Shown here: piece by piece, positions 27,480-34,937 of the stretch
Layout of the letters: each line of letters starts with the position of its first letter
Position numbering within the stretch: the stretch's first letter is position 1
DNA from: an uncultured SAR86 cluster bacterium
GTDB taxonomy: Bacteria; Pseudomonadota; Gammaproteobacteria; Magnimaribacterales; D2472
NCBI GenBank assembly: GCA_902601475.1
Contig: CACKNK010000001.1
Span: 309,075 to 373,074 of the forward strand
Direction: 5' to 3'
DNA length: 64,000 bases
Position numbers and translations under genes: made by a program
The notes under the pieces: model-generated
The model's input: only the letters and a program-made list of their open reading frames with translations
Told to the model about the DNA's origin: nothing
The model's database searches: none

Positions 27480-28273
27480 TAATGGACTCCCTGACTAACT
27501 GATTTAAGATACAACTGATTTGAGTCCTCATTCTGAATGATTTCTATATTGCCATCCTTAACAAGCTCTAGTGATGCCAATAAAGCAACTGCAACACCTT
27601 GTCTCCCCTCAGATTTTTTAAAGGTCTTAAAGAATTGAATGATATTTCTTTTGGTTAAAAGGCCAAGAATGTGCTCAATCCTTTCTTGCGTTGATAGTTC
27701 CTCAAATTCAACAAAGTGGATTCCTTCAAATTTAGGTCTTGATATTACTTCAGCAAACACATCCAGAAGATCGGTTGTATTAAAAGGGAGTTGTTCCTTG
27801 GGCTCGTTAAACTTTGGCAAGCCAGCGTTGGCAACAAAATAGTCCCGTTCAATTTTGGGAAGGTTTGAGATTCGTTCTGAGACAGATTTAAAGCGTTTGT
27901 ATTCTTGTAGTCTCTTTATCAGAGTTGATCTTGGATCTTCTTCATCTTCAAGTTCATTATCTTGAGGAAGCAACATTCTAGATTTAATATGCGCTAGAGT
28001 TGCCGCCATGACCATATAATCTGATGCAAGCTCAACCTTCAATTCTTCCATAATTTCTATATATTGGAGGTACTGTTCTGTGATTGAAGCTACATCTAAC
28101 TCCAATATATCAATATCTTTTTTATTAATTAGATATAAAAGAAGATCCATTGGACCTGAGAACTCCTCAAGGATTAATTCAAGGGCATTTGGAGGAATAA
28201 ATAAATCCTCTGGGAGAGCATCAATATTTTTACCCTTAAGCAGCGGAAATTCTCTTTGAATTGTAGAGCTCAT
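27479..28273 (-). CDS. scpA: segregation and condensation protein A
   Basis: FSGPMDLLLYLINKKDIDILELDVASITEQYLQYI. Confidence 0.93.
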   Translation of the reverse strand: MSSTIQREFPLLKGKNIDALPEDLFIPPNALELILEEFSGPMDLLLYLINKKDIDILELDVASITEQYLQYIEIMEELKVELASDYMVMAATLAHIKSRMLLPQDNELEDEEDPRSTLIKRLQEYKRFKSVSERISNLPKIERDYFVANAGLPKFNEPKEQLPFNTTDLLDVFAEVISRPKFEGIHFVEFEELSTQERIEHILGLLTKRNIIQFFKTFKKSEGRQGVAVALLASLELVKDGNIEIIQNEDSNQLYLKSVSQGVH

Positions 28274-28441
28274 CTACTAGATAGTGTAATCATTGAGTGA
28301 ATAATACACAATATATAGTGTTTTTAAAGCTTTTTAGGGCTTATACAAAGGATTTAACTAAATCAGTTAATCTGAGGTAAAAACGTATATATTTTTGATT
28401 AATATATTTTTTATAGTTTTTTATCAATTATCATACTGCAG

Positions 28442-29491
28442 ATGAATTATCTTACTGACAATACAAGAATTGTAGAGAAGTTTGATCTAATAACTCCTAA
28501 TGAAGTTTTAGAGAAATATCCACTTACAGATGAGGTTGCAGCGCTTGTATATGGAACTAGAAATGAAATAAGTCAGGTTCTCCATGGCAAAGATGATAGG
28601 TTGCTTGTGATATGTGGGCCATGTTCAGTTCATGATAAAAAATCAGCCATTGAATACGCTAAATTTTTAAAAGATGCTAGAGATCAATTCTCAGATAATC
28701 TTTTAATAGTAATGAGAGTATATTTTGAAAAACCTAGGACTACAGTTGGTTGGAAAGGTCTCATTAACGACCCAGATCTGAATAATACTTTTGATGCCAA
28801 TAAAGGCTTGATGTTAGCTAGATCAATTCTTAAAGAAATTTCTGAAATTGGGCTTCCTATAGGTACAGAATTCCTAGACCCCATTTCACCACAATACGTT
28901 GCTGATCTGATATCTTGGGGCGCCATTGGTGCTCGAACTGCAGAAAGTCAGATACATAGAGAGCTAGCATCTGGTTTGTCTTGTCCTATTGGTATTAAAA
29001 ATGGAACTTCTGGTGCACTCAAGCCAGCAATTGATGGAATCCAAGCAGCTAACCACTCACATGTATTCTTCTCTAATACAAAAGAAGGTATGGTCTCCAT
29101 TTACAAGACTTCAGGCAATTCAGATGCTCACATTATTTTAAGAGGTGGCAGCAATCCTAATTATGACAATGAGGCAGTAGAGCAAACCTTGATAGCATTA
29201 AGAGAGGCGGAGGTTAATGAATCAATCATGATCGATGCGAGCCATGGAAATAGTCAGAAGCAACATAAAAATCAAGTCACCGTTACACAAAAAATTGCTG
29301 ATCAAATTTCTGATGGTAACTTGCTTATCAGAGGCCTCATGCTAGAGAGCAATTTAGTTGAAGGTAATCAGTCAATTTCAGAAAATCTTACATATGGTCA
29401 AAGTATTACTGACGCATGCATGAATACAGAAGATACGTTGATATGTTTAAATGCTTGCTCTGAAGCTGTTGAAAAAAGAAGAGGAAACTAA
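28442..29491 (+). CDS. 3-deoxy-7-phosphoheptulonate (DAHP) synthase, class I
   Basis: VICGPCSVHDKKSAIEYAKFL; MRVYFEKPRTTVGWKGLINDP; MIDASHGNSQKQHKNQ. Confidence 0.95.
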   Translation: MNYLTDNTRIVEKFDLITPNEVLEKYPLTDEVAALVYGTRNEISQVLHGKDDRLLVICGPCSVHDKKSAIEYAKFLKDARDQFSDNLLIVMRVYFEKPRTTVGWKGLINDPDLNNTFDANKGLMLARSILKEISEIGLPIGTEFLDPISPQYVADLISWGAIGARTAESQIHRELASGLSCPIGIKNGTSGALKPAIDGIQAANHSHVFFSNTKEGMVSIYKTSGNSDAHIILRGGSNPNYDNEAVEQTLIALREAEVNESIMIDASHGNSQKQHKNQVTVTQKIADQISDGNLLIRGLMLESNLVEGNQSISENLTYGQSITDACMNTEDTLICLNACSEAVEKRRGN

Positions 29492-30283
29492 TTGAAGGAA
29501 GTTTCAGTTTCACTTGATATAATTAATACTCTTGGCCCTACTCCAGCAATAGTTTTGGCTGTAATTCAGCAAAATAAAATTCCCTCTGAAAACTTCGATG
29601 AACTGATCTCTAATTTAGAGAATTATCTAAAATTTGAAAATAGGGAAAATCTCATCCAAGCAACTCAAAAGCTTTTGAAACTAAAACTTATTGGATCTAG
29701 CGATTCTGCAACCGGGAAAAAAGACAATGTTTATAAATTGAAGCTTCCTGGGAAATCTCCAACTGGGTTAAAAAAGCAGATGCATTCTAACTGGCAACCT
29801 AATCTAGAAGTTTACGAAGTATTATTAATGGGTGGTATATCAAAAGAATTTAGTGCTAACAAGCTTCAAGAATTTAAAATTTATTGGAGTGAAAAAGGCT
29901 TGCTTAAAGATAATTGGAACTCAATCTTTGTTGATTTTGTGAGAAGAGAATGGGTAAAGGAAAAATCACCAAATAAGGGCGCTCCAACCCAAATGCATCG
30001 AAATTGGCAACCAAGCAGTGACGCCTATGAGGTTCTTGAGTTAGCTAATATCCCAAAAAATGTTTCACAATCATATATATTAGAATTTGTACTGTTTTGG
30101 GAAGAAGATGGAGTAGCTCTAAAATCATGGAATTCAAAGTTTGTAGACTTTGTAAAAAGAAAAGAAATAGTTAATACAATTAACAATGAAGAAAATAAAA
30201 GATCTAATAAAAAAGAAGAAGGCCATGGGGAATCTTCAGAGCAGACAAAAGACCTATCGTGGTCAAAAGATCTCGAGCTCTAA
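29492..30283 (+). CDS. DnaT-like protein with two tandem DnaT-type ssDNA-binding modules (TTG start)
   Basis: Two homologous internal blocks: KKQMHSNWQPNLEVYEVLLMGGISKEFSANKLQEFKIYWSEKGLLKDNWNSIFVDFVRREW and PTQMHRNWQPSSDAYEVLELANIPKNVSQSYILEFVLFWEEDGVALKSWNSKFVDFVKRKE. Confidence 0.75.
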   Translation: MKEVSVSLDIINTLGPTPAIVLAVIQQNKIPSENFDELISNLENYLKFENRENLIQATQKLLKLKLIGSSDSATGKKDNVYKLKLPGKSPTGLKKQMHSNWQPNLEVYEVLLMGGISKEFSANKLQEFKIYWSEKGLLKDNWNSIFVDFVRREWVKEKSPNKGAPTQMHRNWQPSSDAYEVLELANIPKNVSQSYILEFVLFWEEDGVALKSWNSKFVDFVKRKEIVNTINNEENKRSNKKEEGHGESSEQTKDLSWSKDLEL

Positions 30284-30833
30284 AAAGAAACTCATAATTC
30301 AATTCATTGAGGACTTATTTTATAAGTTTGAAGTGGCCTATCATTATCAGTTCTTTAAAATTTATTCATCCAATGAAAAAATAATTACTGCGAAACGACT
30401 CTGGGCCAGTACATTAAAAAACTTTTCAATTCATCAGCTAGACCAAGCTAGTGCTTTTATTATAAGCAACAATGAGTTCATTCCCACTCTAAACGAATTT
30501 GTAAAAGCAGTAAGAAAGCAGCCATACTCGGATAGCATTCCGAGTGCTGATGAAGCATTTTTGGAAGCTCAAAAATCTTATTCTCCAAGAAAAAAATATA
30601 ATTGGTCACATCCGATAGTTTATTTCGCTGGATGCAAAACTGGATGGAGTACTCTGAATGACTCCAATCAATACAATGCAATCAACCAATTTAGAAAAAA
30701 TTATGCAGAATTACTAATCAAACTTGAAGAAGGCCTGGATTTATCAATTGATCATACTGAGACTGAAGAATTTGAATTAAAAAAGTTTGATTCCAATTTA
30801 TTCAAACAACTCAGAAAAAAATATGATCTTTGA
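30225..30833 (+). CDS. lambda P-like replication protein (putative helicase loader); alternative start 30186
   Basis: Pattern shared with phage lambda P: short helix, AKRLWASTLKNFSIHQLDQA...FIPTLNEFVKAVRK, then W-rich YNWSHPIVYFAGCKTGWSTLND...NQFRKNYAELLIKLEEG. Confidence 0.62.
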   Translation: MGNLQSRQKTYRGQKISSSKKKLIIQFIEDLFYKFEVAYHYQFFKIYSSNEKIITAKRLWASTLKNFSIHQLDQASAFIISNNEFIPTLNEFVKAVRKQPYSDSIPSADEAFLEAQKSYSPRKKYNWSHPIVYFAGCKTGWSTLNDSNQYNAINQFRKNYAELLIKLEEGLDLSIDHTETEEFELKKFDSNLFKQLRKKYDL

Positions 30834-30933: not shown

Positions 30934-31815
30934 ATGTCTAAAAACGTCAGGATGGCTTTACTAATTTTGCTACCAGTATCTTTCTGGTTTGCAACTGGCG
31001 TGCTTGAAGAGGACAAAATAGAGCCGCCAAAGGCTCAGAAAACATTATCCTCAGTTGTAATTAATGAAAGTATTGCGGAAATGATTTCTCCGACCATAAG
31101 CGTAAACTCTGTTGCTATCAGTGAAAAAAGAGTTGCGGTTAAGGCAAAAACTTCAGGTGAAGTCGTTGCAACAGGTGTTCGACAAGGTGAATGGGTCAAA
31201 AAAGATGAGCTTTTGTGTAGACTCGGCATAGTCGAACTGAATCGAACAGAAGTAAAAGCTCCATTCGATGGCTATGTAGAGAATATTGTTAAGCCAGGTA
31301 ACTTTATTCAAAGAGGTGAAATCTGCGCAACCATAATTGAGCTAAGCCCTATAACATTTGTTGCTGAGGTTCCTGAAGCTAAAATCAAAGACATCTTTGA
31401 AGGTCTTCAGGTCAAAATTGATTTAATCACTGATGAAACTATTTCATCTAATCTCACATTCGTATCTAAAAGTGCATCTCCCGCTACAAGAACCTTCAGA
31501 GTTGAAGCAGAGTTTGAGAATGTAACTGGCGCTGTAAGAGATGGTATTACTGGCACAATGCATATTAGTACTCAACCGATTTTAGCCCATAAAATTACTG
31601 CTTCCGTTTTATTGCTAACCGATGAAGGCAATATTGGTGTAAGAACTGTTAATTCTGAAAGCAAAGTTGAGTTTCATTCAATAAAAATTATTAAAGATAC
31701 AGCCGACGGGCTTTGGGTAAGTGGAATACCTCAATTTTCAAATCTTATAGTTCAAGGACAGGGATTTGTTGAAAATGGTCAAACCGTAGCTGTTACAAAT
31801 CTAGCTAGTCTATGA
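30934..31815 (+). CDS. RND efflux periplasmic adaptor (membrane fusion protein)
   Basis: N-terminal TM/signal; lipoyl-like KAKTSGEVVATGVRQGEWVKKDELLCRL...VKAPFDGYVENIVKPGNFIQRGE; followed by the RND permease. Confidence 0.9.
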   Translation: MSKNVRMALLILLPVSFWFATGVLEEDKIEPPKAQKTLSSVVINESIAEMISPTISVNSVAISEKRVAVKAKTSGEVVATGVRQGEWVKKDELLCRLGIVELNRTEVKAPFDGYVENIVKPGNFIQRGEICATIIELSPITFVAEVPEAKIKDIFEGLQVKIDLITDETISSNLTFVSKSASPATRTFRVEAEFENVTGAVRDGITGTMHISTQPILAHKITASVLLLTDEGNIGVRTVNSESKVEFHSIKIIKDTADGLWVSGIPQFSNLIVQGQGFVENGQTVAVTNLASL

Positions 31816-34800
31816 ATAAAATAGTTGATTTTGCTCTTTCCAAAGGGAAGACAACATTAACTATTGCCTTACTAGTTTTAATTGCTGGAAGTTACTCTCG
31901 CACGATCATTCCCGTTGCTGCAGACCCAAGCATTCAACTTCCATTGGTAAGTGTTTCAGTTTTTCTCGATGGAGCTTCTCCAAATGACGCATCTAGATTA
32001 ATAGCAAAGCCGTTAGAAAATAGACTTAGAAGTGTCCCAGGGATTGAAGAAATATCCTCCAGTAGCACTCTAGGATTTGCAAGATTGGTTGCTGAGTTTG
32101 AAGTAGGACATGACATTGATGCTGCACTCGTTGATATCAAACAGGCTGTAGAAGAAGTTAAATACAAGCTTCCACTCGAGGCAGAAGATCCACAAATAAG
32201 AGAATACTCATTTGCGACATTCCCTGTTATGAACCTCAGCCTGATAGGAAATGGGCCATTGAGGCAAAAAGTATTTTTTGCAAAAGAACTGCAAGATCAG
32301 CTTGAAGGCATAGATGAGGTACTGAGTATTGATATAAGTGGTGCTCCAGATGAGGTTCTTGAAGCAATTATTGATAAGTCAAAGTTGGAAACTTATGGAA
32401 TTACATTAAGAGACCTATATTTAGCTGTTTCAAACAATAACGTAATTATTCCTGGCGGTGCTCAAGATACTGGTGATGGTCGTTTTAACATTGAAGTTCC
32501 TGGAGTTTTTGAGACTGCTCAAGATGTTTACAGCATTCCAGTCAAAGTTACGCCTTCAGCAGTTGTGACCCTTGGAGATCTTGGTGAAATAAGAAGAACT
32601 TTTAAAGACTACTCGTCATATTCAAAAGTTAATGGCAAAGATGCAGTTACGCTTGAAGTAAAACTTAGAGAAGGCGCTAATGCAATAGATGCTAAGCGTG
32701 CAATCATGTCGAATATCTCTGAGTTTGAACCTTACCTACCTGAAAACATTGAAATTGTTAAAACTGATGATGAAACCATTTGGGCTGAAAAAATGATTAC
32801 AGAGCTCCAAGGAAACATTGTTACCGCAATTTTTCTGGTAATGATACTGGTTGTTGCCAGTATGGGTATTAGAGTTGGCATGTTGGTTGGTCTATCCATA
32901 CCATTTTGCTTTCTTCTAACTTTTATTGTTTTAAATATTGCAAACATTGAATTTAACTTCCTAGTAATGATGGGATTGTTGTTAGGACTTGGAATGCTCA
33001 TCGATGGTTCTATTGTTGTCACGGAATATGCAGATAGAAAAATATCTGAAGGCGTACAAAGAATTGAAGCTTACAGACTCGCTTCAAAAAGGATGTTCTA
33101 TCCGATACTGTCCTCGACAGCAACTACAATTGCCGCCTTTACACCACTTATTTTCTGGCCTGGATTCACAGGTCAATTTATGCGTTTTTTACCAATCGCT
33201 GTTTTCATAGTTCTATCAGCTTCATTGGTCTATGCAATGATTGTAGTGCCAGTTCTTGGTGCTGTATTTGGTCAAAGAAGATCTTCTCTTATGTCTGGAG
33301 AATCTGAGAAAACTGGAGAGGTTGTTTTTGACAGAGTTTCATCCTTCTACAGCAAATGGGTGAGGATTTTTGCGAAGAATCCATTTGAAACAATATTAAG
33401 CGTTTTTTTTCTATTATCAGTCATTATTATTTCTTACGATCGCTTTGGAAAAGGTACAGTATATTTTCCTTACGTAGACCCTGTTGCTGCTGAAGTATCA
33501 ATAAGAGCAAGAGGTAATTTTTCAGCTACCGAATCAAAAGGTATTGTTGAGCAAGTTGAAGACAGGCTGCTCGAAATTCAAGAAATAAAAAGTCTTTATT
33601 TAAGAACAGGCTCTGAGTGGTTTAACTCAGGTGGTGATGTTGTGGGACGTGGCTTTTTTGAGGTTGAGGAATTTAATTCAAAGGGACTCACAGGTCAACA
33701 AATAATTGATCAAGCTAAACTGGTAGTAGCAAATATCCCAGGCATTATTGTCGAGATAAGCGAGCAAGAAGGTGGGCCTGCTTTTGAGAATCCCATTGAA
33801 ATAGGTATTTTTGGAAATACTGAAAATGAGGTTGTTCAGGTAACTCGGATGGTTGAAGACTATGCAAAGAATGGAGTTACTGGCCTAGCGAATATAAGTT
33901 CAACGTTACCTTACCCCCAAATTGAGTGGAAGATTGATGTTGATAAACAAAAAGCTGCTCAACTGGGAGTCAATATTTCAGACGTAGGTGCTATTGTGCA
34001 GATGCTTACAAATGGTTTTAAAGCTGGTGAATATAGGCCTGATGATTCAAGAGATGAAGTTGAGATAAGAGTCAGGTTCAAGCGCGATGAAAGATCGTTA
34101 ACAGGTATTGATGATCTAAAGGTCCCCTCCTCGCGAGGACAAATACCTATCAGCTCATTTATCAAAATTATTCCAAAAGAAAATAGGCAATCTGTTGTTA
34201 GAAGAAATGGTAAGTTTTTTCATGAAATTGGAGCTGCAGGAGCAAATAAAGACATTTTAATTGATGTAAAAGTTAAAGAAATGAGGCAGTGGATAGATCA
34301 ACAAGAGTTTCCTTCAGGAATTTTTGTTCAATTTAGGGGACAACAAGAGGAAACTGAGGAGGTAAATAGTTTTTTGAGTGTTGCAGGTATTACAGCTATC
34401 TTCCTTATGCTTGTCCTACTACTTACTCAATTTAATAGCTTCTATCAATCAATTCTCATTTTGTCTGCAGTATTTATGTCGGCTACAGGCGTTTTATTAG
34501 GATTGCTAATTACCGGACAACCCTTTGGTACAACCATGACTGGAATCGGCATTGTTGCGTTAGCTGGAATTGTTGTTAATAACAATATCGTCTTGATTGA
34601 TACTTTTAATAGACTTCGAGATGAGAATCAAAATCTAGCTAGATATGATGTGGTGGTCATGGCTTGTAAACAAAGATTGAGACCGATCTTATTAACAACC
34701 CTCACAACTATTTTCGGGCTGCTGCCGCTAGCTGCTGGAGTAAGTCTAGATATTGTTGCAAGATCAATTGAATTAGGCAGTCGAGTTGTAGATTGGTGGC

Positions 34801-34937
34801 AGCTTTTAGCACAATCAATAGTTTTTGGATTAGGTTTTAGTACAATCTTGACTCTTATTTTTACCCCAGCTGCATTAATGGTTCCTGAATCAATTAAAAA
34901 TTACTTTAGCAAAACTACAGCGGTCGAGACTTCTTAA
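31812..34937 (+). CDS. RND-family efflux transporter permease (AcrB/HAE1-like)
   Basis: 1041 aa; GLLLGLGMLIDGSIVVTEYADRKI; GIGIVALAGIVVNNNIVLIDTFN; RLRPILLTTLTTIFGLLPLA. Confidence 0.95.
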   Translation: MNKIVDFALSKGKTTLTIALLVLIAGSYSRTIIPVAADPSIQLPLVSVSVFLDGASPNDASRLIAKPLENRLRSVPGIEEISSSSTLGFARLVAEFEVGHDIDAALVDIKQAVEEVKYKLPLEAEDPQIREYSFATFPVMNLSLIGNGPLRQKVFFAKELQDQLEGIDEVLSIDISGAPDEVLEAIIDKSKLETYGITLRDLYLAVSNNNVIIPGGAQDTGDGRFNIEVPGVFETAQDVYSIPVKVTPSAVVTLGDLGEIRRTFKDYSSYSKVNGKDAVTLEVKLREGANAIDAKRAIMSNISEFEPYLPENIEIVKTDDETIWAEKMITELQGNIVTAIFLVMILVVASMGIRVGMLVGLSIPFCFLLTFIVLNIANIEFNFLVMMGLLLGLGMLIDGSIVVTEYADRKISEGVQRIEAYRLASKRMFYPILSSTATTIAAFTPLIFWPGFTGQFMRFLPIAVFIVLSASLVYAMIVVPVLGAVFGQRRSSLMSGESEKTGEVVFDRVSSFYSKWVRIFAKNPFETILSVFFLLSVIIISYDRFGKGTVYFPYVDPVAAEVSIRARGNFSATESKGIVEQVEDRLLEIQEIKSLYLRTGSEWFNSGGDVVGRGFFEVEEFNSKGLTGQQIIDQAKLVVANIPGIIVEISEQEGGPAFENPIEIGIFGNTENEVVQVTRMVEDYAKNGVTGLANISSTLPYPQIEWKIDVDKQKAAQLGVNISDVGAIVQMLTNGFKAGEYRPDDSRDEVEIRVRFKRDERSLTGIDDLKVPSSRGQIPISSFIKIIPKENRQSVVRRNGKFFHEIGAAGANKDILIDVKVKEMRQWIDQQEFPSGIFVQFRGQQEETEEVNSFLSVAGITAIFLMLVLLLTQFNSFYQSILILSAVFMSATGVLLGLLITGQPFGTTMTGIGIVALAGIVVNNNIVLIDTFNRLRDENQNLARYDVVVMACKQRLRPILLTTLTTIFGLLPLAAGVSLDIVARSIELGSRVVDWWQLLAQSIVFGLGFSTILTLIFTPAALMVPESIKNYFSKTTAVETS

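Follow-up and report, generated by a model that had tools for sequence, protein, structure and literature searches.

How the helicase DnaB is loaded in a bacterium in which neither DciA nor DnaC is found is the question raised by a short locus of an uncultured SAR86 cluster bacterium. In the 64,000-nucleotide stretch of DNA analysed here (the window), two overlapping genes, D and P, sit between an aroG-type DAHP synthase gene and an RND operon, and, as an earlier note on the sequence had stated, no phage genes are found near them (Table 1). They are adjacent chromosomal genes of phage O- and P-type origin that lie outside prophages. We hypothesize, with a probability of roughly 0.8, that D and P together constitute the chromosomal DnaB loading system of this lineage, a domesticated phage pair of the DopC/DopE type, and that the C-terminal tail of P would grip DnaB and suffice where the body of P has been lost.

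Table 1. Features of the D-P locus, in window coordinates (f2 and f4, families of the order; g5, a genus of family f1; G153, a genome from outside the order)
Feature	Position	Strand	Remarks
aroG-type DAHP synthase	28442..29491	+	directly upstream of D
D (DopC-like)	29492..30283	+	263 aa; N-terminal domain and two DnaT domains
D N-terminal helical domain	29492..29773	+	aa 1-94; common to DnaT-type phage initiators
D DnaT domain 1	29777..29974	+	domain E 4.6e-19
D DnaT domain 2	29990..30163	+	domain E 1.7e-18
P (DopE-like)	30186..30833	+	215 aa; putative helicase loader of the lambda P family; overlaps D
P N-terminal helical domain	30276..30518	+	aa 31-111; G39P-like; retained in the truncated P of g5 and G153
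P C-terminal domain	30534..30743	+	aa 117-186; W.HP..GW region; deleted in g5 and G153
P C-terminal tail	30795..30830	+	NLFKQLRKKYDL; predicted helix aa 203-212; retained in g5, apparently fused to D in f2 and f4
RND membrane-fusion protein (adaptor)	30934..31815	+	context
RND pump	31812..34937	+	context

The first gene, D, begins with a TTG codon that abuts the stop codon of aroG. In profile searches it matches PF17948 (DnaT) twice (E 1.1e-37, 128 bits, cut-off 25), which bears out the two DnaT-like blocks previously noticed in this ORF. The whole-protein DnaT equivalog NF002770 is not reached (21.5 versus 201 bits), the match covering part of the length only. In the predicted structure both DnaT bundles are modelled with confidence and the N-terminal domain with less certainty, and the D profile matches the solved DnaT weakly (E 0.008); Foldseek with the whole D model returned nothing usable, the placement of the domains being uncertain. 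The doubled DnaT module had been thought unusual. Relatives outside the order (Magnimaribacterales) carry three copies, and the two domains of D are therefore best read as a reduction from three; an unusual gain is ruled out.

The second gene, P, overlaps D by 98 nt, within the 59-98 nt given before, and its start at the ATG at 30186 is backed by related P proteins. P matches PF06992 (Phage_lambda_P; E 2.9e-9, 37.4 bits, cut-off 26) and PHROG 109, 'P-like helicase loader' (E 1.5e-16). For the P model (mean pLDDT 82.7), the best PDB match is lambda P in its complex with DnaB (9oa1 chains Z and Y, ranks 1-2, probability 1.00), at a modest E of 8.8e-3 and a whole-chain TM-score of 0.35, the domains matching better than their arrangement. 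Judged by sequence and predicted fold, P belongs to the lambda P helicase-loader family, as the earlier note had proposed; the profile search that it named as a check recovered both DnaT and lambda P. The N-terminal domain model also resembles SPP1 G39P (TM 0.71 by target length, E 6.4), whereas the sequence similarity of P to G39P is marginal (E 0.009). The shortened P of genus g5 likewise has the G39P layout of N-terminal domain, linker and C-terminal helix. The start of P, MKKIKDLIKKKKAM (30186-30240), is faintly, and possibly by chance, like the N-terminus with which E. coli DnaC binds DnaB, MKNVGDLMQRLQKMM; this DnaC-like start is missing in family f3.

Pairs of this kind are found well beyond the order. 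When named genomes were scanned with the D profile, 448 relatives were retrieved, and the top 80 are mostly of Cellvibrionales type (Cellvibrio, Teredinibacter, Gilvimarinus, Haliea, Porticoccus, Pseudohongiella). In 77 of these 80 loci P follows D immediately and in the same orientation, the modal overlap being 89 nt. With profiles derived from the order studied here, the Cellvibrionales-type loci are matched at E of ~1e-78 to 1e-92 for D and ~1e-39 to 1e-55 for P, and DciA was found in none of the 33 D-P-bearing Cellvibrionales-type genomes tested. A class-wide sample holds tandem D in only two genomes outside the order, against the 448 relatives of the named scan, and hence under-represents Cellvibrionales. 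The dopC/dopE proposal for Cellvibrionales was reportedly made by Brezellec et al. in 2017, in Genome Biol Evol 9:1561. Cellvibrionales are the sole order composed only of species without dciA and dna[CI] (Brezellec 2016, PMC5109545), and dopC/dopE were, according to a citing paper (PMC13326638), put forward as the replacement by Brezellec 2017. We take the D-P pair to be, almost certainly, the DopC/DopE system occurring in a different order, an identity that we draw from orthology to Cellvibrionales. DopC/DopE are likewise reported to be neighbouring chromosomal genes that overlap and are of phage O/P type, in a host without dciA and dnaC/dnaI. The pair described here differs in belonging to another order with small genomes, in adjoining aroG, in having two DnaT domains instead of three, and in that some relatives have lost the P body or half of it while retaining the tail. 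E. coli DnaT/DnaC also has an ssDNA-binding DnaT domain beside a helicase loader gene; unlike in E. coli, there is no AAA+ DnaC here, and D scores far under the DnaT equivalog cut-off. A DnaT and lambda P-type pair is thus itself of an already known kind and the double DnaT module is no novelty; what is new here is the repeated reduction of P with retention of its tail.

Because divergent members escape the Pfam lambda P model, a profile made from the P proteins of this order was used instead. With this profile, P is present in nearly all genomes of families f1 and f3, and is found nowhere in the whole genomes of f2 and f4, single-contig ones included; a relocated P was therefore rejected. A weak second P match in G030, a complete single-contig relative, was rejected, as it resembles a TetR-type regulator. 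In genus g5, P has only 142-147 aa and consists of the N-terminal half and the tail (for example LEKLRKKHQI), and the half-size P of G153 has 169 aa. Loss or truncation of the P body has thus occurred on at least four occasions, the body being gone in f2 and f4 and halved in g5 and G153. The last ~12 residues of P are retained in f2, f4 and g5, and less clearly, as a weak match, in G153. In 14 f2 and 2 f4 genomes they are found on D, which carries a C-terminal extension with a P-like ending, such as SKLENLKKKHHI and AALSKLRNKYKI. A tree of 11 neighbour proteins places f4 with f1 and f2 with f3, with 96% on the split and an outgroup that rests on one protein, and two shared traits, the loss of one DnaT domain and the absence of a nadE-like neighbour, agree with it. 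Since f2 and f4 are non-sister by both tree and shared traits, the tail was probably fused to D on two occasions, in f2 and in f4.

The likeness of these endings was scored in several ways. A 12-residue matrix was trained solely on P tails from f1 and from a single genus of f3. With it, every f2/f4 D end tested ranks above all 1094 null C-termini, and no f1/f3 D end does. A looser tail motif occurs in 84% of Cellvibrionales P and 1-3% of null C-termini, and in 15 of 15 f2/f4 D compared with none of 80 Cellvibrionales D. The tails of this order are separated poorly by an 18-residue matrix from Cellvibrionales P tails, whereas the 12-residue matrix does separate them. The P of the outgroup G192 (L158:8451-9152) has no such tail, though the aroG-D-P order is the same; its different ending may be a frameshift, an assembly error or a real change.

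Phages carry related proteins. The N-terminal domain and DnaT domain of D are homologous to the initiator of Xanthomonas phage HXX_Dennis (BLASTP 8e-18; hhalign probability 99.3). This DnaT-type initiator (L120:2533-3399 / L297) ends in PLSPDENRKRFAEAFALLK, which reaches 24.1 with a matrix built on Cellvibrionales P tails, the best null scoring 9.8, and neither P profile finds a P gene in this phage; a P-type tail on the initiator suggests a direct initiator-helicase contact. In Pseudomonas phage VW-6S, a DnaT-type gene adjoins a lambda P gene. The pair has in common with lambda O/P and the DnaT-type phage initiators (HXX_Dennis, VW-6S) the P family and fold and, with the HXX_Dennis initiator, the homology of the D N-terminal and DnaT domains; it differs from them in being chromosomal and conserved and in its multiplied DnaT domain. 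Separately, a contig from IMG/VR (IMGVR_UViG_2199352012_000202; L296:3001-3501) encodes a 166-aa protein with two DnaT domains and a D-like C-terminus, LSDRSWA, without the N-terminal domain, followed by ORFs resembling Mu gp16/Mor; it is a possible phage mimic of the D of a host.

The ending of D in f2 and f4 could also be a chance or convergent charged helix unrelated to the P tail, an unknown loader having replaced P. The motif is indeed short and rich in Lys and Leu, and 12 residues alone cannot prove homology. However, all sampled f2/f4 D, and no f1/f3 D, lie above every null C-terminus, the truncated g5 P retains the same tail, and a phage initiator without P carries it too. We regard a chance origin as unlikely and continue with the tail on D as one derived from P.

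Other loaders were sought in the window's genome (1.35 Mb, 22 contigs, 81% complete) and beyond. The search for dciA and dnaC named in the earlier note found DciA neither in this genome (PF05258) nor in any of the 151 genomes of the order, compared with 226 of 275 genomes of the class. It found no DnaC-like ORF: IstB/DnaC-like matches in the window's genome are limited to two ORFs, whose lengths of 441 and 803 aa suit DnaA and a further AAA+ protein and not a DnaC/DnaI loader of ~250 aa, and no DnaC-sized match occurs in 56 near-complete genomes. The window's genome has no DnaT domain beyond D. G030, whose sequence opens with a DnaA-like ORF and then dnaN, encodes DnaB and PriA, and DnaC, PriB and PriC are not found in it with E. 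coli queries. The proposal that the pair is this lineage's DnaB loading system is therefore supported by homology and by the absence of other loaders, from which it is inferred. The pair might, on the other hand, serve replication restart of PriA type only, with DnaA unaided, or else an unrecognised protein, loading DnaB at oriC. Mu-type phages rely on restart proteins, and a D fragment is found on a phage contig with a Mor/gp16-like neighbour. PriA is present in G030, and E. coli DnaT acts in restart (PMC13377028) and not in initiation at oriC, so that a role of the pair at oriC does not follow directly. Against a restart-only role, P is a homologue of lambda P, a loader of origin type, and no other loader was found in the 151 genomes; moreover, restart in E. 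coli also needs the DnaC loader, and one loader would hence serve both routes. These points make a restart-only pair improbable; D and P may act at oriC, in restart or in both.

The locus itself is well conserved. Apart from small insertions, 12 loci drawn from four families share the order aroG-D-(P)-RND adaptor-RND pump-ispA-dxs, and the GC-rich outgroup G192, from another family, has the same aroG-D-P order; scpA, scpB and rluB lie near the pair on the opposite strand. D is present in 133 of the 151 genomes of the order, including 39 of 40 near-complete ones. In G012, a near-complete single-contig f4 genome read to 820 kb (82%), no PF17948 match was found, and the match is also missing in four further f4 drafts; D may be lost or very divergent in G012. 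Median dN/dS values within genus g15 are 0.10 (D) and 0.09 (P). A decaying prophage remnant without present role, which the phage-type genes and their phage homologues might bring to mind, is ruled out by the synteny across four families and the outgroup and by dN/dS of ~0.1, with no phage genes around, and retains practically no credibility. The D-P locus is conserved, and strong purifying selection acts on it. As a separate observation, a nadE-like gene (~535 aa) lies between scpA and aroG in f2 and f3 (L107, L108, L110-L112, L115, L117) and is missing in f1 and f4; the corresponding interval of the window is 28273-28442.

A mechanism can be proposed from what is known of the related proteins. 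On ssDNA, the C-terminal domains of E. coli DnaT assemble into a filament, and this filament marks where loading takes place (PMC13377028). D would bind ssDNA through its tandem DnaT domains, which may act as a covalently pre-joined piece of such a filament, and its N-terminal domain may dock on the origin or the restart machinery. In lambda P, residues 103-233 bind DnaB, and the C-terminal end abuts the linker helix of the adjacent DnaB subunit, in a sequence assignment that the authors call tentative (PMC6391071); the LH-DH site on DnaB is common to DciA, DnaC and lambda P (PMC9912922). The N-terminal half of P would hold D and its C-terminal half bind DnaB, P thus linking the two, with the last ~12 residues as a helix on the LH-DH site. 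In f2 and f4, the tail fused to D would let D recruit DnaB directly and make the P body dispensable, while in g5 the tail on the N-terminal half of P would work like the phage G39P. We propose that the P tail is a minimal helicase-binding element. More tentatively, and with slightly more doubt than belief, the irreducible part of a lambda P-type loader may be a portable C-terminal DnaB-docking helix of ~12 residues, the rest being repeatedly discarded; moved onto an initiator, as in f2, f4 and one phage, it would leave no need for a separate loader protein.

DopC/DopE have so far been only a proposal for DnaB loading in bacteria that have neither DnaC nor DciA. The comparison adds a second order to the range of the pair and finds that it goes together with the absence of DciA. 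It also points to a short, testable element, a C-terminal peptide retained through independent losses of the remainder of the loader. Should this peptide bind DnaB at the LH-DH site, it would represent a minimal recruiter of the helicase and offer a simple proof of the role of the pair.
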